Source: Streptomyces albidus (ex Kaewkla and Franco 2022) (GTDB taxonomy: Bacteria; Actinomycetota; Actinomycetes; Streptomycetales; Streptomycetaceae). Taken from it: a stretch of 64,000 nucleotides of DNA. The translations under genes were made by a program, and so were the position numbers. The notes under the pieces are model-generated. The model was not told the origin of the DNA and did not search any database. It was given only the letters and a program-made list of their open reading frames with translations. Shown one piece after another: positions 33,057 through 50,172 of this stretch (its first letter is position 1; every line of letters begins with the position of its first letter). The DNA lies in assembly GCF_013870515.1 (NCBI RefSeq), contig NZ_JACBXA010000006.1:1-64000 (forward strand), read 5' to 3'.

Positions 33057-33827
33057 ATGAGTTCACGTTCTGCCAGAGCGCTGCTGTCGGTGCTGACGGG
33101 CGCGGGCCTGATGTTCGCCGTCCCCGCCGCCACGCCCGCTTTCGCGAGCTCCGCACCCGTCGCTGCCGCTGAGGCGACCGTCACCGACGGTTGCTACACC
33201 TGGAGCGGGGCGCTCAGCGAGGGCGCGTCCGGTGAAGCAGTACGGCAGCTGCAGATCAGGGTCGCCGGCTACCCGGGGAGCGGCAGCCAGCTGGCCATCG
33301 ACGGGCAGTTCGGCCCGGGCACCAAGGCCGCGGTGCAGCGCTTCCAGTCGGCCTACGGCCTGTCCGCCGACGGCGTCGCGGGCGCGGCGACCTTCAACAA
33401 GATCTACGAGCTGCAGGACGACGACTGCTCCCCGGTCAACTTCACCTACGGCGAGCTGAACAACTGCAACTCCGACTGGTCCGGCGGCAAGGTCAGCGCC
33501 GCCACGGCCCGCGCCAACGCCCTCGTCACCATGTGGAAGCTCCAGGCCATGAGGCACGCCATGGGCGACAAGCCGATCACGGTCAACGGCGGCTTCCGCA
33601 GCGTCGCCTGCAACAGCTCGGTCGGAGGCGCGGCCAACAGCCGCCACATGTACGGGCACGCGGCCGACCTCGGCGCCGGCTCGCAAGGCTTCTGCGCCCT
33701 GGCGCAGGCGGCCCGCAACCACGGCTTCACGGAGATCCTCGGCCCGGGCTACCCCGGTCACGACGACCACACCCACGTCGCGGGCGGCGACGGCCGGTTC
33801 TGGTCGGCCCCCAGCTGCGGCATCTGA
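33057..33827 (+). CDS. Secreted zinc D-Ala-D-Ala carboxypeptidase (M15 type) with peptidoglycan-binding domain
   Basis: A 256-residue protein. Signal peptide at about 1-36 (LLSVLTGAGLMFAVPAATPA, FASSAPVA). A peptidoglycan-binding module follows (GASGEAVRQLQIRVAGYPGS, IDGQFGPGTKAAVQRFQSAY). The C-terminal M15A domain has VNGGFRSVACNSSVGGA, SRHMYGHAADLG (zinc His and Asp) and GHDDHTHVAG (last zinc His). The arrangement is that of the Streptomyces albus G type enzyme, which trims the terminal D-Ala from cell-wall pentapeptides. Cysteines in the mature part suggest disulfides. GGAGAGG precedes the ATG. Confidence 0.93.
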   Translation: MSSRSARALLSVLTGAGLMFAVPAATPAFASSAPVAAAEATVTDGCYTWSGALSEGASGEAVRQLQIRVAGYPGSGSQLAIDGQFGPGTKAAVQRFQSAYGLSADGVAGAATFNKIYELQDDDCSPVNFTYGELNNCNSDWSGGKVSAATARANALVTMWKLQAMRHAMGDKPITVNGGFRSVACNSSVGGAANSRHMYGHAADLGAGSQGFCALAQAARNHGFTEILGPGYPGHDDHTHVAGGDGRFWSAPSCGI

Positions 33828-33878
33828 GCCGAAGGGCCGCCTGGCGGTTCGATGTCGCGACGCCTGACGGCCGCGACT

Positions 33879-33927
33879 GCTGATGTGCCCCTGTTGCAGA
33901 CATGGTCTGCAACAGGGGCACATCAGC
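33879..33927. terminator. Perfect 23-bp hairpin
   Basis: Bases 33879-33901 are exactly complementary to 33905-33927, with ATG as the 3-base loop. It lies 52 bases after the carboxypeptidase stop and 16 bases beyond the end of the displaced methyltransferase tail at 33943. That is where a terminator shared by two convergent genes would be. No T tract follows, as usual in streptomycetes. Confidence 0.75.
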
Positions 33928-33942
33928 GAGATGCCAGGTCAG

Positions 33943-34004
33943 TCAGCCCCGCTTCGCCACCGGCTCCAGGATCGCCACGCACTCCATGTGGTGCGTGGTC
34001 GGGA
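33943..34004 (-). repeat. Displaced copy of the RNA methyltransferase 3' end (att-like repeat, distal)
   Basis: 62 bp matching 39557-39618 with four mismatches. Read on the minus strand it encodes THHMECVAILEPVAKRG and a TGA stop, the same end as the intact gene. Two of the mismatches are silent (ATC CTG here, ATT TTG in the intact gene). Confidence 0.85.
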
Positions 34005-34391
34005 GCCCTGCACGAAGAACGAGACAGGCAGGTGCGCGGTTCAAGTTGGGCTCGTGGATCCCGTTGACGAAGAAGCGGGGTCACTGTCGGTTCGGCAGGC
34101 ACCGATGCCGACAGCGGTACACCGACGCTGCCGAGATGAACCACCGAGGGCGCCACGCCTCCGGCATGCGTCCGTCGGCCGGGCAACGTCAAGAAATGGG
34201 ATCACGGTCAACTCACGTGTGTACTAGTGTTGTTGACGCTGCGCACCTTCCCGGAGGGTACGTCGGCGGTGTTCAAGTGCCGGTCCTCGACCGTGACTGA
34301 CGAGTGGTTTCCAGCGCGTGCTTCACGCGGTGTGAGTGCGGGGCCCGGCAGGGCCCCCTGCCATTCCAGCTCACGCCCAGGAGTGGTCCGT
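34005..34391. other. Island left end, non-coding
   Basis: No gene is visible. It contains CTGTCGG...CCGACAG pairing near 34085-34115, a GTACTAGT core near 34217 flanked by GTCAAC/GTTGAC arms, and a hairpin GGGGCCC/GGGCCCC at 34340-34357. The GTACTAGT-type core resembles operators of GntR-like regulators of actinomycete mobile elements, but the match is short. Confidence 0.4.
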
Positions 34392-34520
34392 ATGAACCCC
34401 GTGGAGTACAAGCCTGCACGTCGTAGCCAGCTTCGCAAGTTTCTGGCCGACGTCGCCGTAGGCGTCATCGCGAATCTCGTGGTGATGGCCCTTATCGCGG
34501 CAGCACACCTGGTCTTCTGA
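34392..34520 (+). CDS. Small membrane peptide, DUF6408-like
   Basis: A 42-residue peptide, MNPVEYKPARRSQLRKFLAD then VAVGVIANLVVMALIAAAHL. One basic amphipathic start and one membrane segment, as in the short DUF6408 proteins of Streptomyces. It lies inside the island, on the strand opposite the helicases, and is separated from them by a bidirectional terminator. Function unknown. Confidence 0.55.
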   Translation: MNPVEYKPARRSQLRKFLADVAVGVIANLVVMALIAAAHLVF

Positions 34521-34527
34521 CCCAGGC

Positions 34528-34556
34528 GTGTGGCGGGTCCGGAGAGCCCGCCACAC
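34528..34556. terminator. Bidirectional terminator in the island
   Basis: GTGTGGCGGG (34528-34537) pairs with CCCGCCACAC (34547-34556) around a 9-base loop, between the stops of the small peptide and the first nuclease-helicase. Confidence 0.75.
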
Positions 34557-34576
34557 CGAATTGCCCGAAACTCCGG

Positions 34577-36697
34577 TCAGAACAGCTTCGGATCCGCTTC
34601 CCGTGAGCGCGACTTCTTCCTGTTGCGGGGACGCTTCCCCCTCCGCGGCCGGGAAACGTGCGGTATGCGTGCCTCCTGCGGCAGGTTCTCCCAGGTGGGG
34701 CGCAGTCCTTGGACGTCGACCGTGCCGACCAACTCCTTCAGGTAGTCGCGGGTCTCTTCATCCGTGGAATAGAGCACGGTTGCACGGCTCGCACGGGTCA
34801 TCAACACGTGGTACGCATGACGGACGAGACGGGCGAACTCGTCCTCGTCGACGCTGCCGGCCTTCACCTTCGGATCGAACGAACCTGGTTCTGCAACGCG
34901 CTTGACCCCCTTTTCGGGACCCGCGCAGTGCTTGCCCCTGCGGAAGACCCACCGGTCGCCCCGACGCACCATGTCATCGCCCATGATCACGCCGCACCAG
35001 TCCCATTCGAGGCCCTGCGCCGTGTACACACAGCCGACCTGGTCGAGGCCGTTCTCATGCACGGACCAGATCTTTGACGGCGGTGCGCCGTTCTCGCAGA
35101 AGGATTCGCTGTACGCATTCCACGGACGGTGCCAATCACCTATGCGGACATCGGGCTCAAGCCTCTTCTCCTCCCCGAGCGGCTTCGTCCAAGGCCAGCA
35201 GTAACCCGCGACCATCCGGGCAGACGCCCCGGCCATGGCTTCGGTGCGGATGACCCGTTCCATCTCCTCCGGACTGTCCACCACTTCGACGTGCATGAGT
35301 CCGTCCTGTCTCCACTCCTCAGGCTTCTCGTCCGCCACCCCGAGCACCCCGCGTACCCAGCGGATGTAGGCGTCGCTGCCGCCGCAACGGAACTGCTCCC
35401 GGAGTCTGTGCCGCTGGAGGTGAGCGCCGTGCCGCTCGGCCGCGTCCTCGATCAGCTTCACTGTCCCGACCTCGTTGGGCCGCACGGACTGTCCCTCGTC
35501 CAGGAAAAAGACCGTCAGATGCGAGGCAGCGAGGAGCTCGTCCACCTGCGGTCCTGTGCCCTGCTGTTCCGGCTTCCAGAAGCGGTTGGTCGAGCGGTTC
35601 CGCAAACGGTGGGCCTCGTCGCAAATCAGCACGTCCACAGGAGGATCCGGCGGAGTGACGAACTGGCTGAAGTAGGTGAAGCTCTCCCTGAACTGCCGGT
35701 CGCCGTATCCGACGTGTTCCTGGAGCGCACCGTTGAAGGCCCTGCTGCCGCTGGCGTACTTCACGGACCGCCCCTGCGCCTCGAACTCCGCCTTGAGCTG
35801 GAGGCCGACGGCGCTTTTGCCGGTGCCGGCGCCGCCGGTCACCAGGAAGACCACCCGCCGCTCGTCCGGCACCAGGGCAGGGTGGCAGGGGTCCGGGAGC
35901 ACTTGAGAGGCCGTGCCCAGGATCTGATCGGCGAGCACCTTCTGCCGCCCCCGCAGCGTGAATACCGTGTCCTCACCGCGCGACGAGATCATCGCATCGA
36001 GCAGGGGCGTGTTGCGCAACCCCATGCTCCTCAAGAGAGCCTCGGCCTCCGAGGCACCGCCCTCTTCGGCGAAGCTCTCCCGCAGATCGGCCATCAGCCG
36101 GGCACGGCCGTCGTTCGTGTACACCCGGGCGTAAGGGCCGGTGGGCGCATCGATGCCAGTCAGGGGCTGCACGGAATCGTCCGTGGCGTTGTGCAGGTAG
36201 GCGAATCCACCGCATTCGAACTCGATCCCGTTCATGGGCCCTCTGTCGCCCGTGAAAGCCTCGTAGTACTCCCGCAGTTGGAGAGCCGGATGCTTTTTCT
36301 TCTCTCCGATGCCCGGTACATGCACCAGGTCCGCAGTGGCCTGTTCCACCCTGGTCACCAGCGACCAGCGCTTCAACTCGACGAGCTGCACGGACGGCCG
36401 GGCCTCTTGCGGATGTCGGCCCACGAGCACGACGTCGATGAGCCGAGGATCACTCCGGCTTTCGGTCTCATCGAGGGTGGCGGCGCATTCGACGATCATC
36501 TCTACATTGCCTCGACCGGCGGCAACCAGGTCGTTGGCAAGGCTCACCAGGCTCTCCGCCCAGGCGGAACGCTCCGTCAGTGAGGCGTCCGAGCCTCGGA
36601 AGTGCCGCCATCTGTGAGCGAGGTACGGCACCATGTGCCGCCTTGAGTTCATGGTGAGCAGATCCTGCGCTGCCAACTTCAGCAGGAGCATGGACAC
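34577..36697 (-). CDS. PD-(D/E)XK nuclease-like + DUF2075 SF1 helicase protein A
   Basis: A 706-residue protein. An N-terminal domain (about 35-180) carries the restriction-endonuclease-like pattern ID...VELK (D88, E107, K109). The helicase part has GGAGTGKS (288-295), DVLICDEAHR (DEAHR 360-364), FLDEGQSVR (near 399), REQFRCGGSDAY (near 433), GCVYTAQGLEWDW and VLMTRASRATVLYS. This is the DUF2075 group related to Schlafen-type helicases. The tail is very basic and may bind nucleic acid. GTG at 36697 was chosen because TGGGGG lies upstream; an ATG two codons later is possible. A paralogue follows upstream at 36915-38804. Predicted role: nucleic-acid degradation in phage defence, by inference. 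Confidence 0.85.
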   Translation of the reverse strand: MSMLLLKLAAQDLLTMNSRRHMVPYLAHRWRHFRGSDASLTERSAWAESLVSLANDLVAAGRGNVEMIVECAATLDETESRSDPRLIDVVLVGRHPQEARPSVQLVELKRWSLVTRVEQATADLVHVPGIGEKKKHPALQLREYYEAFTGDRGPMNGIEFECGGFAYLHNATDDSVQPLTGIDAPTGPYARVYTNDGRARLMADLRESFAEEGGASEAEALLRSMGLRNTPLLDAMISSRGEDTVFTLRGRQKVLADQILGTASQVLPDPCHPALVPDERRVVFLVTGGAGTGKSAVGLQLKAEFEAQGRSVKYASGSRAFNGALQEHVGYGDRQFRESFTYFSQFVTPPDPPVDVLICDEAHRLRNRSTNRFWKPEQQGTGPQVDELLAASHLTVFFLDEGQSVRPNEVGTVKLIEDAAERHGAHLQRHRLREQFRCGGSDAYIRWVRGVLGVADEKPEEWRQDGLMHVEVVDSPEEMERVIRTEAMAGASARMVAGYCWPWTKPLGEEKRLEPDVRIGDWHRPWNAYSESFCENGAPPSKIWSVHENGLDQVGCVYTAQGLEWDWCGVIMGDDMVRRGDRWVFRRGKHCAGPEKGVKRVAEPGSFDPKVKAGSVDEDEFARLVRHAYHVLMTRASRATVLYSTDEETRDYLKELVGTVDVQGLRPTWENLPQEARIPHVSRPRRGKRPRNRKKSRSREADPKLF

Positions 36698-36773
36698 GAG
36701 GTGGTTCCCCCAGGGCACGAGTGATTCGTGCGGGTGGGGGCATGTCCTCGTGTGGGGAAGCCCGTCGGGCCGC
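36694..36773 (-). promoter_or_regulatory. Structured 5' leader A sequestering the ribosome site
   Basis: Read on the minus strand: GCCCG-A-CGGGC (36770-36760), then ACACGAGG (36753-36746) pairing with CCTCGTGT (36701-36694) across the GTG start, CCCCCA (36740-36735) pairing with TGGGGG (36712-36707), and GCACGA (36731-36726) pairing with TCGTGC (36720-36715). The Shine-Dalgarno region and start codon would be paired in the folded state. Confidence 0.6.
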
Positions 36774-36914
36774 AATCGGTTCCGGAGATCTTAGGCAATG
36801 AGCCGGTTGCCGAGGAACGACGGCAAGGCTGTCGGCGCGAACCACAGGGGTCGTGGCTGAATCGCGGTGTAGAGGCGCCGGCTCGGATCCTCCTGCCGGA
36901 ACCAGGGCGCGCCG

Positions 36915-38804
36915 TCAGGCCATGGCAGTGTCCCGCTCCAGACTTCGGCCCACCAGCTCTCGCAGCTTCTCCCGGGTCTCCGGGTCCGTCGAGTACACGA
37001 GCGTGCCGATCATGCCCCGGGTCAGCAGCACCTTGTAGGTGTTGCGAATGAGACGGTCCACGTCGGCGTCCGGTGTGGACCGCTTGAAGATGGGATCCTT
37101 GGACGCCGTGCGGTCCGTGACCCACCGGTCTCCGCGCCAGACCAGGTCGGGCCCGATGATGACGCCGGACCAGTCGTACTCGAAGCCCTGGGCGGTGTAG
37201 ACGCAGCCGACCTGTCCGAAACCTGCGGGGTCGGTCGCCCATAGCGCTGCCGGGGGCGCACCCGAGACGGCTCGGTCGCCGCGCACGTTCCAGGGGCGAG
37301 CCCAGTCGCCGATGACGACGTCGAGCGGCAGCGACTCCCCGGGCTCGGGCTCCTCAGACCAACGCCAGCAATAGCCGGCGGACATACGAGCGCTGTAGTT
37401 CTGGGCGCGGCAACCGTCGAGGAAGCCTTCCATCTCCTGCGGACTGTCGGCGACCAACAACTGCATGCGATCGTCCGGCTCCCAAACCACCGGGCCGCCG
37501 GGTTCCAGGCCGAGTCCTCGTACCACCCAGCGCAGATAAGCGTCGCTGCCGCCACAACGGAACTGGCTCTCCAGCGGCACGACATGGCAGTCCAGGCCCT
37601 TTGCCGTCGCGGCGGCCTTGATCTCGTCCACAGTGCCCATCTCGCCAGGCCGTACCACCTGGTGTTCATCGAGCAGAAACACGGGAACGCGGGCGACGTC
37701 GATGAGTTCGTCGATCTGCCGCCTACCGGTGCGGTGGGCTGCGGGCGTGTAGCGGTTGGCGGAGGTCTCACGGATGCGGTGGGCCTCGTCGCAGATCAGG
37801 ACGTCAAGGGAGTTCTTCTCCGTGGTCATGAAGCTGTTGAAGTACTTGAACAGCTCCTGCACCGCACGCTTGCGGGTACCCGCGACCTTCCGCATCGTCT
37901 TGGTGAACGACTGGGAGCCGGTGGCGTGCAGGGCCGGAACGCCCTGCCTGTACAGCTCACCGAGCAGGGAGAGCGCGATAACGCTCTTTCCGGTGCCGGG
38001 CCCGCCGGTGACGACCACGACTTCCTTGCAGTCGGACTGCTTCGCCCTACGCACGGCGTTGAGCACCGACCGGTAAGCGACCTGCTGTTCGTCGAGCAGG
38101 ACGAACTGCTCGCGTTCACGCACCTCTTGGGCCGCGACCGCCATCAGCTGCTTCGACGGGACCGTCTTGCCCGCCAGGAGTTCGTCGGCCGAGCGGGCGC
38201 CCACGTGCTTGTCACTGAGTCTGGCTCGGAGGTGGTCGACGAACTCTCCGCGCTGCTCACCGCTGAACAACTGGCCGTAGCCGTCGAGGTCTGTCGCGCG
38301 CAGACCGCTGACGCCGAATTCGGTGGCGTTGTGGAGGAATGCCACACCGCTGATCCGGCCGGGGTGCTCGGCCACCGCCCCGTTGAAGTTGACGAGGTAC
38401 TCGCAGTAGCGCCGCACCTGCTCGATGGGGTTGAGAACCGGATGCGTGTAGGCGTCGACGCGGCACAACGAAGGATCTTCCTCGTCAGGTTCGGCCTGAC
38501 TCCACTGCTTCAACTCCACAACCACGAATGAGGATTCGCCCGTCATCGGGTGCACCCCGGCGAGCACGGCGTCTGCACGCTTGCTGTTCAGCGGCAGCGC
38601 GTACTCCAGCATGACCTCGACATCGCCCAGGCCCGCGTCGGTGAGTGCGGCCGTCAGCGCGGGGATGCTTCGCTCCCAGGAGCGCATTTCCGATGCACCC
38701 GGCCGGTAACCGTGCATGTGGACGAACTGCTCAGCAAGGTGGAGGTAGAGCGAGCCCTCGAGGGCCATGACAGCGACCGTTTTCGCGGACGCGCGGAACA
38801 GCAA
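36915..38804 (-). CDS. PD-(D/E)XK nuclease-like + DUF2075 SF1 helicase protein B
   Basis: A 629-residue paralogue of protein A. The nuclease-like pattern is ADAVLAG...VVVELKQW (D78, E97, K99). The helicase has GGPGTGKS (267-274), DVLICDEAHR (DEAHR 339-343), FLLDEHQVVR, SQFRCGGSDAYLRWV, GCVYTAQGFEYDWSGVIIG and VLLTRGMIGTLVYSTD. It lacks the basic C-terminal tail of A. TTG at 38804 was chosen because TGGGGGAAGTTC lies directly before it; the open frame continues 96 codons upstream through the leader but that part is not conserved. Divergence between A and B is large, so they likely form a two-part system rather than a recent copy. Confidence 0.85.
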   Translation of the reverse strand: MLFRASAKTVAVMALEGSLYLHLAEQFVHMHGYRPGASEMRSWERSIPALTAALTDAGLGDVEVMLEYALPLNSKRADAVLAGVHPMTGESSFVVVELKQWSQAEPDEEDPSLCRVDAYTHPVLNPIEQVRRYCEYLVNFNGAVAEHPGRISGVAFLHNATEFGVSGLRATDLDGYGQLFSGEQRGEFVDHLRARLSDKHVGARSADELLAGKTVPSKQLMAVAAQEVREREQFVLLDEQQVAYRSVLNAVRRAKQSDCKEVVVVTGGPGTGKSVIALSLLGELYRQGVPALHATGSQSFTKTMRKVAGTRKRAVQELFKYFNSFMTTEKNSLDVLICDEAHRIRETSANRYTPAAHRTGRRQIDELIDVARVPVFLLDEHQVVRPGEMGTVDEIKAAATAKGLDCHVVPLESQFRCGGSDAYLRWVVRGLGLEPGGPVVWEPDDRMQLLVADSPQEMEGFLDGCRAQNYSARMSAGYCWRWSEEPEPGESLPLDVVIGDWARPWNVRGDRAVSGAPPAALWATDPAGFGQVGCVYTAQGFEYDWSGVIIGPDLVWRGDRWVTDRTASKDPIFKRSTPDADVDRLIRNTYKVLLTRGMIGTLVYSTDPETREKLRELVGRSLERDTAMA

Positions 38805-38895
38805 GAACTTCCCCCAGGCAGCACGAAGTGACTCGTGCGGGTGGGGGCGTGTCCTTCGAACCTCCACCGCGGTGGAGCGGAAGCCCGTCGGGCCG
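38805..38895 (-). promoter_or_regulatory. Structured 5' leader B sequestering the ribosome site
   Basis: Same order as leader A: GCCCG-A-CGGGC (38893-38883), an extra palindrome CTCCACCGCGGTGGAG (38862-38877), CCCCCA (38847-38842) pairing with TGGGGG (38816-38811), and GCACGA (38838-38833) pairing with TCGTGC (38826-38821). The TTG start follows the paired TGGGGG by 6 bases. Confidence 0.6.
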
Positions 38896-39556
38896 CGTTG
38901 ACGATCCGTTCGAGGATACCTGGCGGCGGTGCGAGCGGTGCCTGGGCTGCTGGGGCCGACCTGGATGCTTCTTCTGCATCGCGTTACACGCCCAGTGCCA
39001 GCGCCGCACCCACGGCGATCCGCCGCATCTGGGTCAGGACAGCAGGCGCGTATGGGTGGGCGTGATCTGCACCTCGAGGAAGCACAAATCATCAGGGGCG
39101 TGTCCGACCCATGCTGGATACGTAGTCGTATTTCACCAGTTCACTCACGCGACCAAGGGTGATGTCTGGGCAAAGCTCGCCCTTTCGGCCCCTTCTCTTG
39201 CCCGGTCTGCCGATGCGGCCTGCACACCTCGGGGAGGACCACACTCCGTATGGGGATGCCCGGCGCTGCCAGGAACTGCGGGTCCTGGCTGCGTCGGGAC
39301 GTTGCCAGGTGGAGGACGGCATGACGCTGCTCGTACAGTCGCCCTGGCCGGGACGAACGTCGGTGCGTTGGGGCGGTCGTCTCTCGAACCGCACCCATTT
39401 CGCGCGTAATTCGGCGCTACCGAGGAAGCACGGGCGGCGGCCAGCCGACCCGCAGCGCCGTGCTTCCGGGAGACCGTCAGAAAGAGCGTCCCTTCAACAC
39501 CAAGGCATTGCTTCCATCAGCCGCACTGCACCTCACGCACAAGCGAGACTTCGTAC
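38896..39556. other. Island right end, non-coding
   Basis: 660 bp with no convincing gene; several short overlapping frames have no recognisable motif. It should hold the promoter of the nuclease-helicase operon and the former recombination region of the element. No integrase or excisionase is recognisable. Confidence 0.45.
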
Positions 39557-39618
39557 TCAGCCCCGCTTCGCCACCGGCTCCAAAATCGCCACGCACTCCA
39601 TGTGGTGCGTCATCGGGA
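39557..39618 (-). repeat. RNA methyltransferase 3' end (att-like repeat, proximal)
   Basis: The last 62 bp of the intact methyltransferase gene, repeated at 33943-34004. The low-GC codons ATT TTG in this copy, unusual next to the rest of the gene, suggest that this tail was supplied by the inserted element. Confidence 0.8.
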
Positions 39619-40906
39619 AGAGGTCGAAGGCGCGCAGGAAGCGCGGCACGTACCCCGCGGTCTTGAAGTAGCCCAAGTCCCGTGCCAGCGCGGCCGGATC
39701 GCACGCCACGTAGCCGATACGGCGCGGGCCCAGGCCGGCGATGTTCTGCACCGTCTGCTTGCCCGCGCCCGCGCGCGGCGGGTCCAGCACCACGAGGTCG
39801 GCCTCGGTGATGCCCGTACGGGGAAGCACCGACTCGACCTTGCCCTGTTCGATGCGGACCCGGTCGAAGTCGGACAGGTTGCGGCGGGCGTCCTCGACGG
39901 CACGCTTGGACGACTCGATGCCGAGTACGGCCCCCGCGTCGCCGACGCGGTCCGCGAGAGCGCCCGCGAAGAGGCCGACGCCGCAGTAGAGGTCCAGGGC
40001 CATCTCGCCCTTGCGCGGCGTGAGTCCGCGCATCAGCGCGTCCACGAGCAGTTCCGCGGACTGCGGGTGCACCTGCCAGAAGCCGCCCGCGCCGATGCGC
40101 CAGGTGCGGTCGTCTGCGCGCTCCCGCACGAAGTCACGCCCGTGCACGCGGTGCAGCGTCCCCTTGTCGGTGGCCTTCTCCCCCACCCTCAACACCGAGA
40201 CCGGCTTGTCCAGTTCGACGAGAGGGAGGCGTCCGCCGGGCTTCGGCGTGAGCACCACCTGGCGGTCCTGGGAGCCGGTGGCCGCCGTCGCCTCGATGCC
40301 GGCGATCTGCGGCCATTCACGGCTTTCGATGCCGAGCTCCTCGATGCCCTCGGAGGCGATGAGGCAGTGGTCGACGGGCTCCACCTCGTGCGAGCGGTGC
40401 CGCCGCAGCCCTGCCCGTCCTTCGTCGTCCACCGCGAACTGCACGCGCGTACGCCACGCGGGCACCTCACCGGCGGGCACCTTGTCGCCGGGTGCGGGCT
40501 CGACGGTGCCGTCCCAGGAGACGTCCTCCGGGGTCATCCCGGCCAGGTGCTGAAGCTGTTCGGTGAGCACCTCGCCCTTCATCCGCCGCTGCGCACCGGG
40601 CTTGGCGTGCTGCCAGTCGCACCCTCCGCAGCGGCCGGGGCCGGAGAAGGGGCAGGGCGCGGGGATGCGGTCCTTGGAGGCGTCGAGGACCTCGACGGCG
40701 TCCGCGCGGAGGAAGCGGGAGTCCTCACGGCCTTCGGTGACGCGCGCGACGACGCGTTCGCCGGGCAGCGTGTGCCGTACGAACAGCACTCGTCCCGCTT
40801 CCGTGCGGGCGACGCAGTGTCCGCCGTGGGCGACGGGGCCGATCTCGACCTCGTACTCCTCACCGACGAGCGAGGGCGCGAGGGCATCTGCGGGTGCTTC
40901 GGGCAT
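39557..40906 (-). CDS. TrmA/RumA-family RNA (uracil-5)-methyltransferase
   Basis: A 449-residue protein. An N-terminal TRAM domain (GEEYEVEIGPVAHGGHCVAR) is followed by the Fe-S cysteine cluster CPFSGPGRCGGCDWQH, a central domain, and the methyltransferase with LDLYCGVGLFAGALA (SAM), VLDPPRAG and YVACDPAALARDLGYF (catalytic Cys). It methylates U in rRNA or tRNA. Complete despite carrying the att-like tail. In other streptomycetes this gene usually lies directly behind an APC-type permease gene, as far as I recall; here the nicotinate cluster lies between them. Confidence 0.93.
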   Translation of the reverse strand: MPEAPADALAPSLVGEEYEVEIGPVAHGGHCVARTEAGRVLFVRHTLPGERVVARVTEGREDSRFLRADAVEVLDASKDRIPAPCPFSGPGRCGGCDWQHAKPGAQRRMKGEVLTEQLQHLAGMTPEDVSWDGTVEPAPGDKVPAGEVPAWRTRVQFAVDDEGRAGLRRHRSHEVEPVDHCLIASEGIEELGIESREWPQIAGIEATAATGSQDRQVVLTPKPGGRLPLVELDKPVSVLRVGEKATDKGTLHRVHGRDFVRERADDRTWRIGAGGFWQVHPQSAELLVDALMRGLTPRKGEMALDLYCGVGLFAGALADRVGDAGAVLGIESSKRAVEDARRNLSDFDRVRIEQGKVESVLPRTGITEADLVVLDPPRAGAGKQTVQNIAGLGPRRIGYVACDPAALARDLGYFKTAGYVPRFLRAFDLFPMTHHMECVAILEPVAKRG

Positions 40907-41046: not shown

Positions 41047-41799
41047 TCAGTACCCTCCGCCCAGCAGGGCCCCCGCGCCAGGCACCATGGTCTTCAGGCC
41101 GAGGTCCGACAGGATGCGGTGCGCGGTGGCGGTCGCCGCGGACAGTACGGGCAGCCCTGAGGCGTCCTCCACGTGCTGTACGGCTGAGAGCGAAGGCATC
41201 TGCACGCAGGCGGAGAGCACGACGGCGTCCGCGCGGGCGAGATCGAGCCGGCGCCAGTGCTCGCGGAGGTCGCCGGGGTCGAGCCGGGCCACCGCGAGGT
41301 TGTCGGGCACCTCGAGGCTGAGGGAGTCGACGACCTCGGTCCCGGCGTCCTGGATGTAGTCGACGACCGTCTCCGTGAGCGGCTTCATGTACGGGGTGAC
41401 GACCGCGACCCGCCTGGCTCCCAGTGCCTCGATGCCGCTGAGCAGCGCACCCGCGCTGGAGACGACCGGAACCTCGGCGTCCTGCCCCCGGAGTACGGAG
41501 GTGATCTCGTCCTCCGCGACGCAGTGGTGGCCGGGGCCCTGGGCCATGATCGCCACGAGGCAGGCGGTGGCGACGACGTCGGGACGGGCGTCGGCGAGCT
41601 CGAGGGTCGCCCGCTCCGTCTGGGCGTTCATGCCCTTCAGCTGCTCGGGGGTCACCTTCTGCATGCGCATCCGGCTGCTGTGGAAGACGAACCGGTCTTC
41701 GGGCAGTACCTCCTCGCGGGAGCGCATCATGCGCGGAAGCTCGGTCTCCATCGTCAGGTTGGAGCTGGGGACGATCATGCCTATGCGGTGGTCTGCCAT
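41047..41799 (-). CDS. maiA: Maleate cis-trans isomerase
   Basis: A 250-residue protein of the Asp/Glu racemase superfamily with the two catalytic cysteines TACLVAI (C80) and SACVQMPS (C198), and IVPSSNLTMETELP near the N-terminus. Maleate isomerase converts maleate to fumarate, the last step of the maleamate pathway. ATG at 41799 follows TGGAGGCCCCG; the longer frame upstream is not conserved. A composite regulatory site lies about 60 bp upstream, so it has its own promoter although it is part of the cluster. Confidence 0.9.
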   Translation of the reverse strand: MADHRIGMIVPSSNLTMETELPRMMRSREEVLPEDRFVFHSSRMRMQKVTPEQLKGMNAQTERATLELADARPDVVATACLVAIMAQGPGHHCVAEDEITSVLRGQDAEVPVVSSAGALLSGIEALGARRVAVVTPYMKPLTETVVDYIQDAGTEVVDSLSLEVPDNLAVARLDPGDLREHWRRLDLARADAVVLSACVQMPSLSAVQHVEDASGLPVLSAATATAHRILSDLGLKTMVPGAGALLGGGY

Positions 41800-41857
41800 C
41801 GGGGCCTCCAGGGTCTCCGGCGGATCGGCTGGTTCACGTCTCCGCCGCACACAGAGT

Positions 41858-41889
41858 TAATCCGAACACGTACTACTTGGTGGCGCAAG
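41858..41889 (-). promoter_or_regulatory. Nicotinate-regulon composite site, copy 1
   Basis: TAATCCGAACACGTACTA (41858-41875) followed by CTTG-N6-CAAG (41876-41889) on the plus strand. The same pair occurs at 52725-52757. It lies upstream of maiA and probably contains the operator of the cluster regulator. Confidence 0.65.
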
Positions 41890-41945
41890 AGCCCCGGATG
41901 TCCTGCTCTCCGGGGCCCGGAACCGTTCAGCGGACACCGCCCAGG

Positions 41946-42428
41946 TCACCCCTGGCCGGACAGCCCCTCCCAGTGGTCGGCCAGCGCCGTCAGCTCCCGC
42001 ATCAGCTGACTGCGCTCCGTGGTCGATCCGTACTGTTCCAGCAGTCGCTCGTCCAGTGCCCGCGCGCGGTCGTCGGCCTCCTGGAGCGCCCTCTCGCCGT
42101 CCTCGGTGAGGAAGAGCAGCTTGCGGCGGCCGTCGTCCGCGGCCGTCTTGCGGACGATGAGCCCCCGCCGCTCCAGCCGGCGGGCGACGTCCGCCATCGT
42201 GGAGGTGTCCAGCGCCACCGCGGAGGCCATCGCGCTCTGGTCCCGTCCGGGGGCGGCGTTCACGGCAGTGAGGACCGCGAACTGCGGGCCGGTCAGCGTC
42301 GGATCGACGCTGCGCACCCATGCCGCGAGATACGCCTGGTACAGACGGCGAACCTGGTAGCCGGGGGCTGCGAGCAGGGCTGCGGGCGGCGCTGCCGCAC
42401 CCGGGGCCGGTGAGGTCTTGTCAGCCAT
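41946..42428 (-). CDS. MarR-family regulator of the nicotinate cluster
   Basis: A 160-residue winged-helix protein (RRLYQAYLAAWVRSVDPTLT, AVNAAPGRDQSAMASAVALD, VARRLERRGLIVRKTAADDG, RKLLFLTEDGERAL). NicR, which controls nicotinate degradation in pseudomonads, is of the same family, so an orthologous role is likely. The CTTG-N6-CAAG element near maiA and nicX is the candidate site. ATG at 42428 was chosen over an upstream extension without similarity. Confidence 0.88.
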   Translation of the reverse strand: MADKTSPAPGAAAPPAALLAAPGYQVRRLYQAYLAAWVRSVDPTLTGPQFAVLTAVNAAPGRDQSAMASAVALDTSTMADVARRLERRGLIVRKTAADDGRRKLLFLTEDGERALQEADDRARALDERLLEQYGSTTERSQLMRELTALADHWEGLSGQG

Positions 42429-42486
42429 GCAGCCCACTAAAGCACGGCCCCGGGAGGCGAGGTCGGTTGCGTCAGGCACCGGCTTC

Positions 42487-43341
42487 TCACCCGGCGAGCT
42501 GCGCGCTCAACGCCGAGCGCAGCGCGGCCAGAGCGGCGTCGGGGTTGTCCCAGAAGACCATGTGCCCGGCATCCGGAATGCCCGTCAGCCGCGCCCCGAG
42601 GTGCGTACGGGCGGCCTCCTTCACGCCTTCCGCGGTGACGACGGGGCTGTCCTTGCCGTAGAGCAGCTCCGTCGGACCGGGCACCGACGGCCACCAGGAG
42701 AAGAAGTCCTCCGACTCGAAGCTGTGGTGCGTCTCCGCGAGCGCTTCCTCGCCGCAGCTGGAGAGCCAGCGGGCACGCAACTCCTGTTCGCGGCGCGGCC
42801 ATCGCGGCCAGGCGCGCGCGACCTCGTCCGCGTCGGTGCCGCGCACGGCCTGCTCCAGCTGTCCGAGGAAGGCGGCCAGCGTCGTCGGGTACGGGTCCCG
42901 GCCCGGGCCGCTCATCGGCGGATCGATCAGCACGGTGCCGCGCAGCGCCACCTTCGCGCGCACTGCCGCGACCGCCGCGATGCGGGCGCCCATCGAGTGG
43001 CCTGCCAGCAGCGGACGTTCGAGGCCGAGACCGGTCACCCATGCCTCGGTGTCCTCCGCGTACGCCTCCAGGTCGTAGCTGTCGCCGCTGTCGGAGAAGC
43101 CGCGCCCCCGGATGTCGGGGACGACCGGACGGACCAGGTCGGTGAGGCGGCGGGCGACGAAGTCCATGGTGACGGCGGGAGACGTGATGCCCGGCAGCAG
43201 CAGGAGCGGCACTCGGGACTCCCCCGCGGAGCCGTAGTCGAGGGCGTGCAGCCGCAGGGAGCCGGAGCGTATCCAGCGGCTGGTGGCGGGGACGTCGGCG
43301 AGATCGGCGAGGGCGGGCTGGGTGATGAACCGTTGTGGCAT
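42487..43341 (-). CDS. nicD: N-formylmaleamate deformylase-like alpha/beta hydrolase
   Basis: A 284-residue alpha/beta hydrolase with AGHSMGAR (S116 nucleophile) and the oxyanion-region LLLLPGITSP. GIPDAGHMVFWDNP holds the catalytic His. NicD removes the formyl group from N-formylmaleamate to give maleamate. ATG at 43341 follows GAGGAACCCGC. The upstream neighbour is the maleamate amidase, so the two enzymes act in sequence. Confidence 0.88.
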   Translation of the reverse strand: MPQRFITQPALADLADVPATSRWIRSGSLRLHALDYGSAGESRVPLLLLPGITSPAVTMDFVARRLTDLVRPVVPDIRGRGFSDSGDSYDLEAYAEDTEAWVTGLGLERPLLAGHSMGARIAAVAAVRAKVALRGTVLIDPPMSGPGRDPYPTTLAAFLGQLEQAVRGTDADEVARAWPRWPRREQELRARWLSSCGEEALAETHHSFESEDFFSWWPSVPGPTELLYGKDSPVVTAEGVKEAARTHLGARLTGIPDAGHMVFWDNPDAALAALRSALSAQLAG

Positions 43342-43369
43342 GCGGGTTCCTCGGGGTGGTGACGGCTGA

Positions 43370-44062
43370 TCAGTGGGCGGGACGGTCGGGCGGACCGCCG
43401 GCGGGCAGCGAGCCCAGATACGCGAGGGCGTCGGAGAGCGGTACGACGTCGCCGTACTTGGCCTGGATGTCGAACAGGGCGGCGTCGTGGGGGCCTTGGG
43501 CACGGTCTCCGGCGCATTCACGCGGGACCAGCACCGGGAAGCCGGACTGGACGGCGTCCACGGCGGTTGCCCTGACGCAGCCACTGGTCGTCGCACCGCA
43601 CACCAGCACCGTGTCGCAGCCCAAGCCGACCAGCACGGCGCTCAGGTTCGTGCCGAAGAACGCGGATGCGCCCTTCTTCACGACGAGTTGGTCCCCGGGC
43701 TTCCGGGGCAGCCTCGGGTCGAGGGCGACGGCCTCGGTGCCTTCGACGAGGGCACGCATCCCATGTGCCTTGTCCAGCCAGGTGATCGAGCGTCCCTCCG
43801 CCTCGGCGGCGGTGTAGGCGATGGCGGTGAAGACGACCGGGACTCCGGCGGGCCGGGCGGCCTCCACGAGGGTTCCGGTCGCCTCGACGACGTCCGTCAG
43901 GTCGGCGCCCGAGGGATAGGAGTCCTCGGTGAACCCTCGGGTGAGGTCGACGACGACCACGGCGGGGCGGCTGCCGCGCCGCACGGGTGCGCCGAACCCG
44001 GCGCGCTCGTAGGTGCGTTCGGTCTCCTCGCCGTAGCCGTCCGCTCGGGTTGCCGGGTTCAC
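43370..44062 (-). CDS. nicF: Maleamate amidohydrolase (isochorismatase family)
   Basis: A 230-residue isochorismatase-fold protein. Catalytic triad: AVVVVDLTRGF (D39), VVKKGASAFFGT (Lys near 129) and CGATTSGCVRATAVDA (C162). This is the N-carbamoylsarcosine amidase-like group to which NicF belongs; it releases ammonia from maleamate to give maleate. The GTG start overlaps the CoxG stop (GTGA), with GGAG upstream. Confidence 0.9.
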   Translation of the reverse strand: MNPATRADGYGEETERTYERAGFGAPVRRGSRPAVVVVDLTRGFTEDSYPSGADLTDVVEATGTLVEAARPAGVPVVFTAIAYTAAEAEGRSITWLDKAHGMRALVEGTEAVALDPRLPRKPGDQLVVKKGASAFFGTNLSAVLVGLGCDTVLVCGATTSGCVRATAVDAVQSGFPVLVPRECAGDRAQGPHDAALFDIQAKYGDVVPLSDALAYLGSLPAGGPPDRPAH

Positions 44063-44769
44063 CTCGTGCTCCTCGCGCCGCAGCAGTGGTGCTTCTCGCG
44101 GGTCAGTACGCGCCCGAGCAGCCACCCTTCGAACAACCCGAAGGCGAACGCCCCCACCACAGGGCCGTACTTGGCGACGGCCGGAGGGACGAGCACGGAG
44201 AGCCCGTTCAGTTCGGACGCGGCGCCTTCGGACGGGGCTTTGAACCCGGACTGCGCTGCGGCGGCGGGCAGTTGAGAAGCGGACGCGGAACCGGGGGCCG
44301 GTCCCGCGGCGTCCGTGCCCCGCCGGTCCTGGTCCAGCAGGCTGCCGAGGTTGCGCGCGAACTGCTGGAGGATCCGGTCCGAGACGGCGCCCACCGCGCC
44401 CTTGCCGAACTGCGCGATCTTGCCCCGGATGACGAGGTCGGTGACCAGCCGCAGTTCGGCGCCCTCCGGCGCCTCCGCCACCTCGAGGCTGACCTCGGCC
44501 TCGGCGTCGCCGCTGCCGTGGGTGTCCGCGCCACGGGCCTGGACCCGCAGCCGCCGCTTCTCGGCGTCGACCTCCAGGAACCGTACGGTGCCGGCGTAGG
44601 CGGCCGTGATCGGGCCGACCTTCACCTTCACCCTGCCGGACCATGCGTCGCCGTCGCTGCCCTCCAGCGTGGCGCCCGGCATGCAGGAGGCGACGCGTTC
44701 GACGTCGTTGACGAGGGCGAACACCTCGTCCGGCGTGGCTCTCACCGCGACCGCGTTGCTGAGCTGCAT
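44059..44769 (-). CDS. CoxG-type SRPBCC protein
   Basis: A 236-residue protein. The first 145 residues form an SRPBCC/CoxG fold (MQLSNAVAVRATPDEVFALV, CMPGATLEGSDGDAWSGRVK, GAVGAVSDRILQQFARNLG). The C-terminal third has a low-complexity linker and a hydrophobic segment (VGAFAFGLFEGWLLG), suggesting a membrane anchor. CoxG proteins help recruit or mature molybdenum hydroxylases of the CO dehydrogenase type. It lies directly behind the small Fe-S subunit gene (28-bp overlap). Confidence 0.85.
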   Translation of the reverse strand: MQLSNAVAVRATPDEVFALVNDVERVASCMPGATLEGSDGDAWSGRVKVKVGPITAAYAGTVRFLEVDAEKRRLRVQARGADTHGSGDAEAEVSLEVAEAPEGAELRLVTDLVIRGKIAQFGKGAVGAVSDRILQQFARNLGSLLDQDRRGTDAAGPAPGSASASQLPAAAAQSGFKAPSEGAASELNGLSVLVPPAVAKYGPVVGAFAFGLFEGWLLGRVLTREKHHCCGARSTR

Positions 44770-45311
44770 GGGGCCTCCTCGTCCTCTCCTGTGCCCTCGA
44801 TCCGGTGCCGCAGCGCGGCCCGGCGGCTTGTGGCGCAGTCGTCGATCGCCTCGACGATGCTCTGATAGCCGGTGCAGCGGCAGAGATTGGAGGCGACGAC
44901 CTCGCGTATCTCCTCCTTCGACGCCTCCGGCCGCTCGGCGAGGAACCCCTCGGCGAGCATCAGGAAACCGGGAGTGCAGAAGCCGCACTGCAGTCCGTGG
45001 TGTTCGCTGAACGCCTGCTGGAGATCGCTGAGTTCGCGCCCCGGAGCCAGGGACTCGACCGTACGGATCTCGCTCCCTTCGGCCTGCGCCGCGAACATCA
45101 GGCAGGCCCGCACGGGGCTGCCGTCGAGCAGCACCGTGCATGCCCCGCAGATCCCGTGCTCGCAGCCGACATGGGTACCTGTCAGCCGCAGGTCGTGACG
45201 GAGCACGTCGACGAGCGTGCGGCGGGGCTCGGTGAGCACCTCGTGGTCCTCGCCGTTGACGTGCAGGCCGATGAGCTGCTGCTGCAGTGCCTGTCGTGTG
45301 GTGTCCGTCAT
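44742..45311 (-). CDS. Molybdenum hydroxylase [2Fe-2S] subunit
   Basis: A 189-residue CoxS/NdhS-like subunit. The plant-type ferredoxin cluster lies in THVGCEHGICGACTVLLDG, and the second cluster in LQCGFCTPGFLM and SNLCRCTGYQSI. It carries electrons between the molybdopterin and FAD subunits. The ATG overlaps the stop of the large subunit (ATGA). Context assigns it to a nicotinate hydroxylase. The C-terminal extension past residue 165 is not conserved. Confidence 0.93.
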   Translation of the reverse strand: MTDTTRQALQQQLIGLHVNGEDHEVLTEPRRTLVDVLRHDLRLTGTHVGCEHGICGACTVLLDGSPVRACLMFAAQAEGSEIRTVESLAPGRELSDLQQAFSEHHGLQCGFCTPGFLMLAEGFLAERPEASKEEIREVVASNLCRCTGYQSIVEAIDDCATSRRAALRHRIEGTGEDEEAPCSSATRSR

Positions 45312-47677
45312 CGCATCCGCTCCAGTGCGCCGGCCACCGTCTCCGGTGTGACCGGGGTGTCGTCGAGCTCCACGCCCGTGGGCAGCAGAGCGTCATTGAC
45401 CGCGTTGAGCACCGCGGCGGGCGCGCCGATGGTGCCTCCCTCACCGACTCCCTTGGCCCCGGTCTCGGTGAAGGCGCACGGCGTCTCGAGGTGATGGACG
45501 GTCACCTCCGGGATCTCCAGCGCCGTGGGGACCTTGTACTCCATGAAGCTGACGGCGGACGGGGCGCCTTGCTCGTCGTAGGTGACCTGCTCGAAGAGCG
45601 CTCCGGCGATGCCCTGGGCGATCCCGCCCCTGGTCTGGCCCTCGACGACCTTGGGGTTGATCGCCACTCCGCAGTCCTCCACGCAGACGTAGCGGAGGAT
45701 CTCCACCTGCCCTGTTCCTTCGTGGAGTTCGACGACAACGCCGTGCGTGGCGTTGGAGAAGGTGCCGTCGCCCAGAGCGTCGAAGGAGGCGGTCGCCGTC
45801 AGCCCGGGTTCCACGTCCTTGGGCAGCAGGTGCGCCTTGAGGTAGGCGATGTCGGCCAGTTCCCGGTACGTCACGGCACGGCCGTCGCGGGGGCGGCGCA
45901 CCAGCCCCTGCCCCAACTCCAGGTCCTCCGCGGGGGTTTCCAGTACGGACGCGGCGATCACCTTCAGCTTCTCGCCGAGCTTGCCGGCGGCCAGCCTGAC
46001 CGCACTGCCGCCGATGGCGACGGAGCGGCTGGCGAACGTGCCCCAGCCGTAGGTGATGCGGTCGGTGTCGCCCTGGTGGATGCGCACTTGGGCGATGTCC
46101 AGGCCGAGTTCGTCCGCCGCGATCTGGGCCAGCGTCGTCTCGTGGCTCTGCCCGTGGCTCATCGTGCCGGTGGTGACGACGAGGGCGCCGCTGGTGTCCA
46201 TCCGCGCCTCGGAGATGTCGAAGCCCGGGACGACCTCCATCTTGCGCTGTGCGAAGGCGGCCGAACCGTAGCCCGTGCGCTCGCTGAAGCAGGAGTAGCC
46301 GATGCCGATGTGCCGGCCCTCGCCTTCCGCCTTCTCCTTCATCTCGTACCAGCCCTCCTCGCGCAGCGAGGACTCGCACAGGTTCAGCGACTCCAGGTAC
46401 GAACCCGGGTCGTAGGTCACGTTGTTGACGCCCGTGTACGGGAACTCGGTGATGAGGTTGCGGCGGCGGATGTCCGTGGGGCCCAGGCCGAGTTCCCGGG
46501 CGGCCCGCTCGAAGAGCCGTTCCATGACCATCACGTACTGCGGGCGGCTCACGCCCCGATACGGCGCTGTGGGCGCCTTGTTGGTGGTGACGGCGCGTGC
46601 CCGCACCCGGTATGCGGGGACCTTGTAGACGCCCGGCATCTCGGCCGACGCCATCAGCGGCTCGATGCCCGCCGTGAAGGGATAGCAGGAGTAGGCGCCC
46701 ATGTCGCAGACGATGGAGGCGTCCAGGCCGAGTATCCGGCCCTCCTCGTCGAAGGCGGCGCGCACGTCGTAGTGCTGCTCCCGCGCGAGGAAGGCAGCCG
46801 ACAGCGCGTCCTTGCGGTCCTCGATCCACTTCACGGGCCGCTCCAGCCGCATGGCGGCAGCGCCCACGGCGATCTCCTCGCGGCCGACCACGCACTTCTG
46901 GCCGAAGCCCCCGCCCATGTCGGGGACGACCACCCGCACCGCGCGCTCGTCGAGTCCCAGGCAGCGGGCGGCTGTCGTACGCACCTGGTGCGGCACCTGC
47001 GTGGAGGTCTGGAGCAGCAGCTGGTCCTCGCGGTGGTCCCAGCTCGCGACGACGCCGCGCGTCTCCAGCGGGAGCGCGTTCTGACGGCCCGTCCTGGTCT
47101 CGACGTGGACCACGCAGGGCGCCTCGTCGAAGGTGGCGTCGATGCCCTCGGTGGCGAACATCGAGACGTCCAGCAGGGTGTTGGCAGCCGCCTCGTCGTG
47201 GACGAGGGGTGCGTCCGGGGCGAGCGCCTGCTCCTCGGAGGTGACGGGAGTACGGGTCTCGTACGTCACCTTCGCCGCCTCCAGCCCGTCCTCGGCGGCG
47301 TACGCGTCGCGGGCGATCACCACCGCGAGCGGCTCCCCCGCGTAACGCACGCGGTCCCGCGCCAGCACCGGCATCCCGGTCGGGACGAACTCGGTGAGCG
47401 GACGGCCGAGCCGGGCGGTGATGTCGGCGAGGCCCAGGTCCTCGGCGCTGAACGCCGCGACGACGCCCGGCACCCGGCGCACCTGGGACAGGTCGAGGGA
47501 GGTGACCGTGGCGTGGGCGACGGTACTCCGTACGAACTGGGCGTGCAGCATCCCGGGCAGTTCGAGGTCGTCGGTGAAGCGTCCGCGTCCGGTCAGCAGC
47601 CGCGGGTCCTCGCGGCGGCCGACGGAGGCGCCGATCCAGGCGCCCTCGGCGGGAGTACGGGGAGGGGGTGCGGTCAT
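45308..47677 (-). CDS. Molybdenum hydroxylase large (molybdopterin) subunit
   Basis: A 789-residue xanthine dehydrogenase-family large subunit (CoxL-like). Start region GASVGRREDPRLLTGRGRFT; cofactor-binding PDMGGGFGQKCVVGREEI and GTMSHGQSHETTLAQI; the catalytic Glu is in GVGEGGTIGAPAAVLNAVN near the C-terminus. It should hydroxylate an N-heterocycle at carbon; with NicC, NicX, NicD, NicF and MaiA beside it, nicotinate to 6-hydroxynicotinate is the natural reading. ATG at 47677 overlaps the FAD-subunit stop (ATGA). Confidence 0.92.
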   Translation of the reverse strand: MTAPPPRTPAEGAWIGASVGRREDPRLLTGRGRFTDDLELPGMLHAQFVRSTVAHATVTSLDLSQVRRVPGVVAAFSAEDLGLADITARLGRPLTEFVPTGMPVLARDRVRYAGEPLAVVIARDAYAAEDGLEAAKVTYETRTPVTSEEQALAPDAPLVHDEAAANTLLDVSMFATEGIDATFDEAPCVVHVETRTGRQNALPLETRGVVASWDHREDQLLLQTSTQVPHQVRTTAARCLGLDERAVRVVVPDMGGGFGQKCVVGREEIAVGAAAMRLERPVKWIEDRKDALSAAFLAREQHYDVRAAFDEEGRILGLDASIVCDMGAYSCYPFTAGIEPLMASAEMPGVYKVPAYRVRARAVTTNKAPTAPYRGVSRPQYVMVMERLFERAARELGLGPTDIRRRNLITEFPYTGVNNVTYDPGSYLESLNLCESSLREEGWYEMKEKAEGEGRHIGIGYSCFSERTGYGSAAFAQRKMEVVPGFDISEARMDTSGALVVTTGTMSHGQSHETTLAQIAADELGLDIAQVRIHQGDTDRITYGWGTFASRSVAIGGSAVRLAAGKLGEKLKVIAASVLETPAEDLELGQGLVRRPRDGRAVTYRELADIAYLKAHLLPKDVEPGLTATASFDALGDGTFSNATHGVVVELHEGTGQVEILRYVCVEDCGVAINPKVVEGQTRGGIAQGIAGALFEQVTYDEQGAPSAVSFMEYKVPTALEIPEVTVHHLETPCAFTETGAKGVGEGGTIGAPAAVLNAVNDALLPTGVELDDTPVTPETVAGALERMR

Positions 47678-48540
47678 CGGGCCATCGCCTCCTCGCATGC
47701 TCGCGCGACGAGCGTCCGGATGAGACTCCGGCGGTACCGCGCGCTGCCGTTCGCGTCCGAGGGAGGGTTCACGGACTCCGCGGCCACGGCGGCGCACCGG
47801 GCGAACAGTTCGGGGCCCGGCATGCCGCCGTTCAGAACCTCCTCCGCCTCGGGTACGCGCACCGGTGACGGTGCGACACCGCCCAGCGCCACGCGCCCGC
47901 CGGACAACTCCCCGCCGCTGGGGGCGAGTTCGAGGTCCACAGCGGCGGAGACGACAGCGAAGTCGCCGCGCCTCTCGGCGAATTCAGCAAGTGCCGCTCG
48001 CGGGGCGGGCCTTGGGAAGACCACCTCGGTGAGCAGCTCGTCTGGTTCCAGGGCTGTCGTGTAGTAGCCGAGGAAGAAGTCCGCCGCCTCGATGCGGCGT
48101 TCACCACGCGGACCCCGGGCGACGAGGACGGCGTCGAGCAGCAAGGCCAGCAGACACCACTCGGCCGTGGAGTCGGCGTGCGCGAGGCTGCCTCCGACCG
48201 TCCCGCGCGTGCGGATGGGCAGATGCCCGATCCAGCGCATCGCGTCCCGTATCACCGCGAACTCGGTGCCCAGCACCTCGGGCGGTGCCGTCTCCATCGC
48301 GTGATGGGTGGTGAGCGCGCCGACGTGCAACGCACCGTCCTGGTCCGTACGCAGCCCGTCGAGGCCGGTCAGACCGCCGATGTCGACCAGGTGCGCCGGC
48401 CGGGCGAGCCGGAAGTTCATCATCGCGACCAGGCTCTGGCCACCCGCGATGATCTTCGCCTCGTCACCGAGCTCGGCGAGCAGCCGGGCGGCACCCTCGA
48501 CGTCGCGCGCACGGTGGTACGTGAAAGCGGCGGGCTTCAT
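47674..48540 (-). CDS. Molybdenum hydroxylase FAD subunit
   Basis: A 288-residue CoxM-like FAD-binding protein: IIAGGQSLVAMMNFRLARPA (FAD), RTRGTVGGSLAHADSTAEW, LEPDELLTEVVFP and RRGDFAVVSAAVDLEL. It leads the three-subunit hydroxylase genes, M-L-S order, followed by coxG. ATG at 48540 was chosen because AGGAG lies 5 bases before it; a GTG two codons upstream is the alternative. Confidence 0.92.
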   Translation of the reverse strand: MKPAAFTYHRARDVEGAARLLAELGDEAKIIAGGQSLVAMMNFRLARPAHLVDIGGLTGLDGLRTDQDGALHVGALTTHHAMETAPPEVLGTEFAVIRDAMRWIGHLPIRTRGTVGGSLAHADSTAEWCLLALLLDAVLVARGPRGERRIEAADFFLGYYTTALEPDELLTEVVFPRPAPRAALAEFAERRGDFAVVSAAVDLELAPSGGELSGGRVALGGVAPSPVRVPEAEEVLNGGMPGPELFARCAAVAAESVNPPSDANGSARYRRSLIRTLVARACEEAMAR

Positions 48541-48645
48541 CTTCACTCCTCTCCGACTCCCCTGCGGCGGGCGGGACCCGACTTCCGTCTGCGGGGCACG
48601 AGTTGCGGTACACGAACCGGGCGGCCCGCGCCCCGCCCGTACAGA

Positions 48646-50064: not shown

Positions 50065-50172
50065 GGTTCGCTCCACGGTTCGGTGATGGCACATTCGTGG
50101 TGTCGGGCAACGGGCACAGCCGCCGGTTCGCTCTGCTCTCAGCGGGACGTCACGGCGACGCACCCGCGCGGC

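Follow-up and report, generated by a model that had tools for sequence, protein, structure and literature searches.

The locus considered here raises the question of why the 3' end of an RNA methyltransferase gene is present twice, with two nuclease-helicase genes and a small peptide gene between the copies, in a 64,000-nucleotide stretch of Streptomyces albidus DNA (positions 1 to 64,000 of contig NZ_JACBXA010000006.1; hereafter the window). Our answer, which we hold to be probable, is that the island between the copies is an integrase-less element similar to a cis-mobilisable element (CIME), lying in a hotspot where tyrosine-integrase elements stack behind the trmA/rumA-family gene and carrying a defence-type module.

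The target gene (39557-40906, minus strand) is intact and encodes a 449-amino acid RumA/TrmA-family RNA (uracil-5) methyltransferase, here called trmA, with TRAM and tRNA_U5-meth_tr domains in Pfam and a score of 199.6 bits against the NCBIfam rumA/RlmD model TIGR00479 (cut-off 183.55). An earlier note on the window had claimed that the last 62 bp of this gene recur in the same orientation with four mismatches, and this was confirmed by the repeat alignment and by a search of the organism's own genome. The proximal tail, which is the gene's 3' end (39557-39618, minus strand, attL-like), and the distal tail (33943-34004, minus strand, attR-like) are identical at 58 of 62 positions (94%), with a start-to-start spacing of 5614 nt. 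When the genome (6.66 Mb in 496 contigs) was searched with 33830-34060, a single second copy emerged (E=3.6e-20), with nothing further at E<=0.001. We also made a tail profile from 125 trmA ends, one of which was that of the window; it places two sites in the window well above the rest (1.7e-16 and 5.5e-11, the third being 0.0036). Together with the repeat alignment, the two strong profile sites and the single second genomic copy therefore rule out a chance repeat.

The distal tail stays in frame through to its stop codon and encodes the correct C-terminus. It is followed by a perfect hairpin at 33879-33927 (arms 33879-33901 and 33905-33927, 23 nt, 100% complementary, 3-nt loop), a possible terminator which is absent from the list of a T-tract terminator scan. 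The proximal tail carries the codons ATT TTG and the distal tail ATC CTG; the former is uncommon, being found in 5 of 109 trmA ends (the window counted), and the latter in 30. The intact distal end, the hairpin and the codon difference had been read correctly in the earlier note. The unique part of the island between the repeats (34005-39556, 5552 bp, a small correction to that note) has a GC content of 0.658, compared with 0.677 and 0.714 in the flanks. A tRNA gene was rejected as the target, as the window has none. When 33800-39700 was compared with Rfam, there was nothing but sub-threshold microRNA-type matches to the perfect hairpin, which scores on such models by its shape, as long perfect hairpins do.

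Second tails are not peculiar to the window. Among 80 named trmA loci, the best of 578 confirmed, which we surveyed with some 10 kb of flank in either direction (median 9.9 kb), a second tail was found downstream on the same strand in 15 loci at 20 bits, 11 at 25 bits and 9 at 30 bits, at distances of 0.9 to 9.7 kb from trmA, and none of the 80 had one upstream on either strand, or on the opposite strand, at 20 bits. A whole-protein search of 60 relatives and the own genome also recovered additional stretches encoding the final ~25 residues, many of which lie on the strand of the gene and 4-51 kb downstream, and three genomes (G029, G032 and G017) had more than one extra tail each. Directly 3' of trmA, many Streptomyces share a left-end sequence in which TGACGCTC/TGACGCAC repeats abound and which lies within 260 nt of the trmA end in 37 of the 80 loci at 30 bits and 43 at 15 bits, and which is found in none of the upstream stretches. 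Protein clustering found no conserved neighbour beyond this point, the commonest downstream family occurring in 9 of 109 loci (a non-redundant set from 125 before duplicate removal).

A tyrosine recombinase family of about 370 amino acids was recognised at the site because PF00589 matches adjoined the tails. At E<=1e-60 it is present in 46 of 392 Streptomyces, some copies being truncated or interrupted. In 38 of these genomes the integrase shares a contig with trmA, and without exception it is encoded downstream on the same strand, at up to 60 kb in 25 genomes, at 116-176 kb in 9 and at 0.47-2.3 Mb in 4. The other eight genomes have the two on different contigs. The integrases at 116-176 kb (G015, G116, G212, G249, G261, G294, G308, G393 and G403) form a second distance cluster, which would fit either a greatly enlarged hotspot or a second site. 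S. hiroshimensis has an apparently complete 6-kb element with the left end, a helix-turn-helix gene, the integrase and 75-nt repeats at 0.99 identity. A serine recombinase was rejected as the enzyme of the site: PF07508 matched 36 times, in 14 of the 17 genomes searched, and by eye these matches were on other contigs or far from trmA and the tails. No close integrase was found in phage records (all 1555 below 60%) or in plasmid records (60-80% in one, below 60% in 349).

The comparison of loci with and without an island points the same way. In G027, the DNA past the second tail matches (0.87 over 343 nt) what comes immediately after trmA in G023; on the near side the match to G023 is limited to the 88-nt tail. 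G023 opens with the common left end, and therefore it lacks that particular island but is not an entirely empty site. The locus pairs L112/L157 and L162/L149 showed a similar trend, less clean because both sides carry similar sequence. An empty site for the window's own species was not found, there being no island-free relative.

The 3' end of the Streptomyces RumA/TrmA-family gene is thus a recurrent, stacked integration hotspot which leaves the gene unharmed. In this class of event, which the relatives show, an incoming element brings its own copy of the last ~60 bp and recombines with the gene end, so that the C-terminus is restored by the element and the older tail displaced to its far side. 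Repeated insertions build arrays, and elements that decay leave islands without an integrase. The earlier note had claimed integration at the gene's 3' end with a new tail supplied by the element: this stands for the class, through the second tails (15 of 80), the position of the integrases (38 of 38) and the G027/G023 comparison, and it is unproven for the window's copy, whose history would follow that of its relatives. Relatives without the helicases which nonetheless have both repeats do exist; the earlier note had held that such relatives would refute an insertion, yet what they show is that the site is general, and the insertion is not refuted by them.

Inside the island, two PF09848 helicases and a DUF6408 peptide were identified by Pfam, in agreement with the two nuclease-helicase genes and small peptide gene of the earlier note. 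No integrase was visible to that note, and none was found by Pfam in the three genes or in ten further open reading frames (ORFs) of at least 85 amino acids in or reaching into the island, selected from the window's ORF list. Hel2 (36915-38768, minus strand, possible TTG start at 38804; PF09848 E=1e-90) has an N-terminal PD-(D/E)XK-like domain followed by an SLFN-g3 helicase. Hel1 (34577-36691, minus strand; E=2.7e-94) is its paralogue (38% identity) with the same architecture. The full-length PF09848 matches of the two score 316.8 and 305.1 bits (cut-off 24). DUF6408 is a 42-amino acid peptide (34392-34520, plus strand, PF19946 78.6 bits) encoded convergently to Hel1.

These genes form a conserved module (34209-38927), also present at other loci, which aligns as a single block at 75-81% identity in 7 of 21 relatives' loci and is sharp-ended there (start 34207-34238, end 38923-38950). 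One of the single-alignment loci is at trmA (G375), others not near it; in further loci the module is split in two, has Hel2 in the reverse orientation, or is reduced to Hel2. The Hel2 family is present in 111 of 392 genomes. Among the matches listed, 49 same-contig pairs of Hel2 and trmA could be typed: Hel2 was downstream of trmA in 22, at up to 35 kb in 17 and at 57-165 kb in 5; no pair had it upstream at less than 200 kb, and in 27 it was farther away, the genomes outside this set having the two genes on different contigs or not among the matches listed. The module is therefore a recurrent, not obligate, cargo of the trmA site. At one locus (L233 in G192), some 470 kb from trmA, a trmA tail is accompanied by part of an integrase and by a form of the helicase module. 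A viral-collection contig (L268) encodes a Hel2 relative at 58% identity, the sole relative among viral contigs.

DUF6408 was found in 35 of 295 genomes and, among the matches listed, in 34 of them it lies within 2.5 kb of a Hel match, 22 of these within 300 bp. The 35th (G028, a short match) has it beside a broken Hel gene. The peptide has one hydrophobic stretch, by eye a candidate membrane helix. Differences by codon position (1299, 713 and 1187 over 15 sequences) are not clearly in excess at the third position; it is the conserved protein motif and constant neighbourhood, not the codon-position measure, that suggest selection on the peptide.

For the helicase proteins, the Walker motifs and residues D78, E97 and K99 are invariant in six sequences, and the latter three are presumably the catalytic D and ExK residues of a PD-(D/E)XK nuclease. 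The N-terminal 218 residues of Hel2 gave a predicted fold with a predicted local distance difference test (pLDDT) score of 84.1, while the full-length AlphaFold model was poor (55.6). The top solved matches of the N-terminal domain were nucleases: Can2 (Z 9.1, root-mean-square deviation (rmsd) 3.8, 137 aligned), followed by Cdn1, EndoMS, BsoBI, HamA and SduA (Shedu). Foldseek gave no match to this domain at E<=0.001 (best 1.1e-3), nothing was found at E<=0.001 among viral structures, and a search by sequence found no solved relative of Hel2.

Each helicase gene is preceded by a leader of ~70-95 nt, near-identical between the two: 38805-38896 before Hel2 (minus strand, 107.9 bits) and 36701-36773 before Hel1 (minus strand, 76.3 bits), scored with our model R1, which was built with both of these copies included. 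The layout is GCGGCCCG..GGGCTTCC, a variable part, then CCCCCA-CC-CGCACGA...TCGTGC...TGGGGG, with the final G run positioned like a ribosome-binding site directly before the start; in the Hel2 leader a likely Shine-Dalgarno sequence, GGGGGA, is inside the hairpin. From 38 copies examined, 33 were aligned and modelled (mean identity 79%), and the model gave 85 matches in 55 of 246 genomes. Among the matches listed, 66 of the 85 lie within 300 nt before a Hel match and 19 have no Hel match within that distance. Five of the 19 are without an intact Hel gene in the DNA examined (G027, G077, G143 and G185, and G028 with its broken Hel gene). For the other 14, the Hel1 match is partial, distant or outside the matches listed; G095, the only one checked, has Hel1.

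Solitary leaders, with no helicase gene in the 11-12 kb examined, were observed in four genomes (L299 to L302), the one in G185 (L302) about 2 kb behind trmA. The leader matched no family in Rfam. A coding function is not favoured, as many copies have ACG in place of the ATG with which a possible short ORF would start. The leader may act as an operator at the DNA level. If it acts as RNA, the helicase mRNA would begin with a conserved hairpin over the likely ribosome-binding site, and therefore translation would probably be low until a signal opens the hairpin.

The other islands of the site carry defence genes among other cargo. We scanned 20 proteins, picked by hand and not at random, from 11 of the 15 tail-flanked islands, and five of the 11 had defence or toxin-antitoxin domains: Fic/Doc (L122), PIN (L093), type ISP/IIG restriction (L109), type ISP/IIG restriction with AbiEii (L105), and Cas1 and Cas2 with a restriction-fold toxin (L092). 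The remaining islands had an integrase (L099, the only one in the 11), a signalling pair (L154), a permease (L111), a helix-turn-helix protein (L112) or nothing (L119 and L129). A further island (L046 in G004) has type I restriction, and genes that we named BREX-like from their sequence, with no model run, are found repeatedly downstream of trmA. Defence genes are thus plentiful at the hotspot but are not its only cargo. For our module, a role in anti-phage defence or in the exclusion of incoming DNA is suggested because of its domain content and the defence and toxin-antitoxin genes in other islands.

Several observations weigh against the explanation of the island as a CIME-like element with a defence-type module. 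A tail lies 183 kb upstream of trmA in G013, and tails are megabases away in G249, G252 and G403. The module is also found away from trmA, and seven genomes with helicases 0.3-25 kb behind trmA had no second tail in the 10-59 kb examined (59 kb in G375, about 39-40 kb in G331, G095 and G322, 20 kb in G255 and G158, 10 kb in S. zaomyceticus); such loci may be longer islands, islands which lost their tails, or cases of another entry route of the module. At E<=1e-60 the integrase family is not represented in the own genome, where 5 of 12 candidates were scored. The left end of the island (39471-39544, minus strand) matches the common left end weakly (nhmmer E=1.7e-4, in a set of 113 loci of 260 nt each), its right end has by eye no clear similarity, and there is one GACGCTC-type motif in 38901-39560 and none in 34005-34300. 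The sequence at 33942 and below, which the earlier note expected next to trmA in relatives, is not so placed in any relative examined: the 2.5 kb below 33942 had no same-strand match of at least 120 nt at E<=1e-15 in the first 6 kb of any of 129 downstream regions. As for the cargo, PADLOC gave partial matches to PDC-S41, Nhi and AbiO (best 1.8e-18), and a double change was seen in 1 of 16 predicted pairs of the leader, so that its RNA structure is likely from energy and conservation and not proven by covariation.

The flank below 33942 also bears on a reading that we consider possible and clearly less probable than our own, in which the distal tail is the attachment end of another element and the island is one unit of an array continuing below 33942. 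The flank is not conserved beside trmA, the orthologue (85-86%) of the M15 gene beyond the hairpin is away from trmA in the closest relatives G413 and G257, some genomes have more than one extra tail, and integrases and helicase modules lie more than 100 kb downstream of trmA in several genomes. Against an array, the own genome yielded no further tail (window position 1 is, however, the contig end), and by eye the letters that follow the distal stop (CTGACCTGG) are similar to the TGACCTG of relatives. That the distal copy is the original tail is not provable, because its flank is not beside trmA in the relatives examined, where even the commonest gene family reaches only 9 of 109 loci.

The cargo has an alternative of similar standing, a minority view in our judgement, which is that the module is a DNA-processing or maintenance cassette for repair or plasmid upkeep and not for defence. 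The helicase part resembles DSH9, RecD2 and PriA, as judged from the poor full-length model, and Hel2 relatives are present on 37 plasmid records, 11 of them from Streptomyces. The patchy distribution of the family and a hotspot shared with restriction, CRISPR and toxin genes argue against maintenance.

Least probable, and unlikely in our view, is that the second tail arose without a site-specific recombinase by homologous or illegitimate recombination between incoming trmA-end DNA and the resident gene: the weak left end, the helicase loci without a second tail and the lack of a recognised integrase in the island or of a family match in the genome would fit it, but tails and integrases keep strictly to one orientation and position across many genomes, which fits a site-specific system, and 62 bp of homology is short for homologous recombination.

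Returning to the CIME-like explanation, the island probably entered through the integrase family of the trmA site, and it may now be stranded, or movable only with outside help. A published account of CIMEs describes att-like repeats that are kept, loss of the integrase and tandem accretion at a gene end (PMC5704250). The window's island likewise has attL/attR-like direct repeats at a gene end and, among its three genes and the ten further ORFs, no integrase or transfer gene, and related elements with an integrase, such as that of S. hiroshimensis, are at the same site. It differs in that the target is an actinobacterial RNA methyltransferase gene and the islands are small and often carry defence genes, and descent from an integrative and conjugative element (ICE) or integrative and mobilisable element would here rest on the weak left-end similarity only.

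The Streptococcus rumA ICEs have single serine integrases, 2-21 bp repeats and a changed reading frame at the rumA end (PMC4701971). The target gene family is common to both, whereas the Streptomyces site has PF00589 tyrosine integrases and a tail of ~45-75 bp that restores the protein end. Because the target family is shared but the enzyme is not, we filed the island as a CIME-like variant. Site-specific accretion and cis-mobilisation of a Streptomyces pathogenicity island, at another site and with other cargo, were reportedly described by Zhang and Loria in 2017.

Among defence systems, the module can be set beside two-part nuclease-helicase systems such as Hachiman, with which it shares a nuclease-like domain and a superfamily 1 (SF1)-type helicase, the likeness being one of domain content and predicted fold (HamA against the N-terminal domain: Z 5.3, rmsd 4.4, 146 aligned). 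Unlike Hachiman, it has nuclease and helicase in one chain, two paralogues, a DUF6408 partner and leaders, and we leave it outside any named defence system. No description of the trmA-end site or of the three-gene module was found in our searches of an open-access literature library. The earlier note, sound on the contents of the island, had overlooked the stacking of the site, the nature of the cargo as a conserved module, and the leaders.

A bolder prediction, doubtful when taken as a whole, is of an undescribed defence system in which translation of two nuclease-helicases is silenced by a shared, infection-sensing leader RNA, the DUF6408 membrane peptide acts as sensor, anchor or toxin, and the module is spread by the trmA hotspot, whose integrase-less islands are moved in trans. 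With its conserved peptide partner, the module would allow the control of nuclease-helicases by a leader to be put to the test. The trmA end could provide a fixed address for finding defence genes in Streptomyces and a natural landing site with matching integrases.

On the other side of trmA, between it and a permease gene (from 52947), the window has a cluster at 41047-52622 which we take to be for nicotinate degradation. In G257 and G413, both close relatives, 51-56 kb separate trmA from the nearest edge of this cluster, which is downstream of it, and permease-side DNA adjoins trmA there. The neighbourhood is thus locally rearranged.

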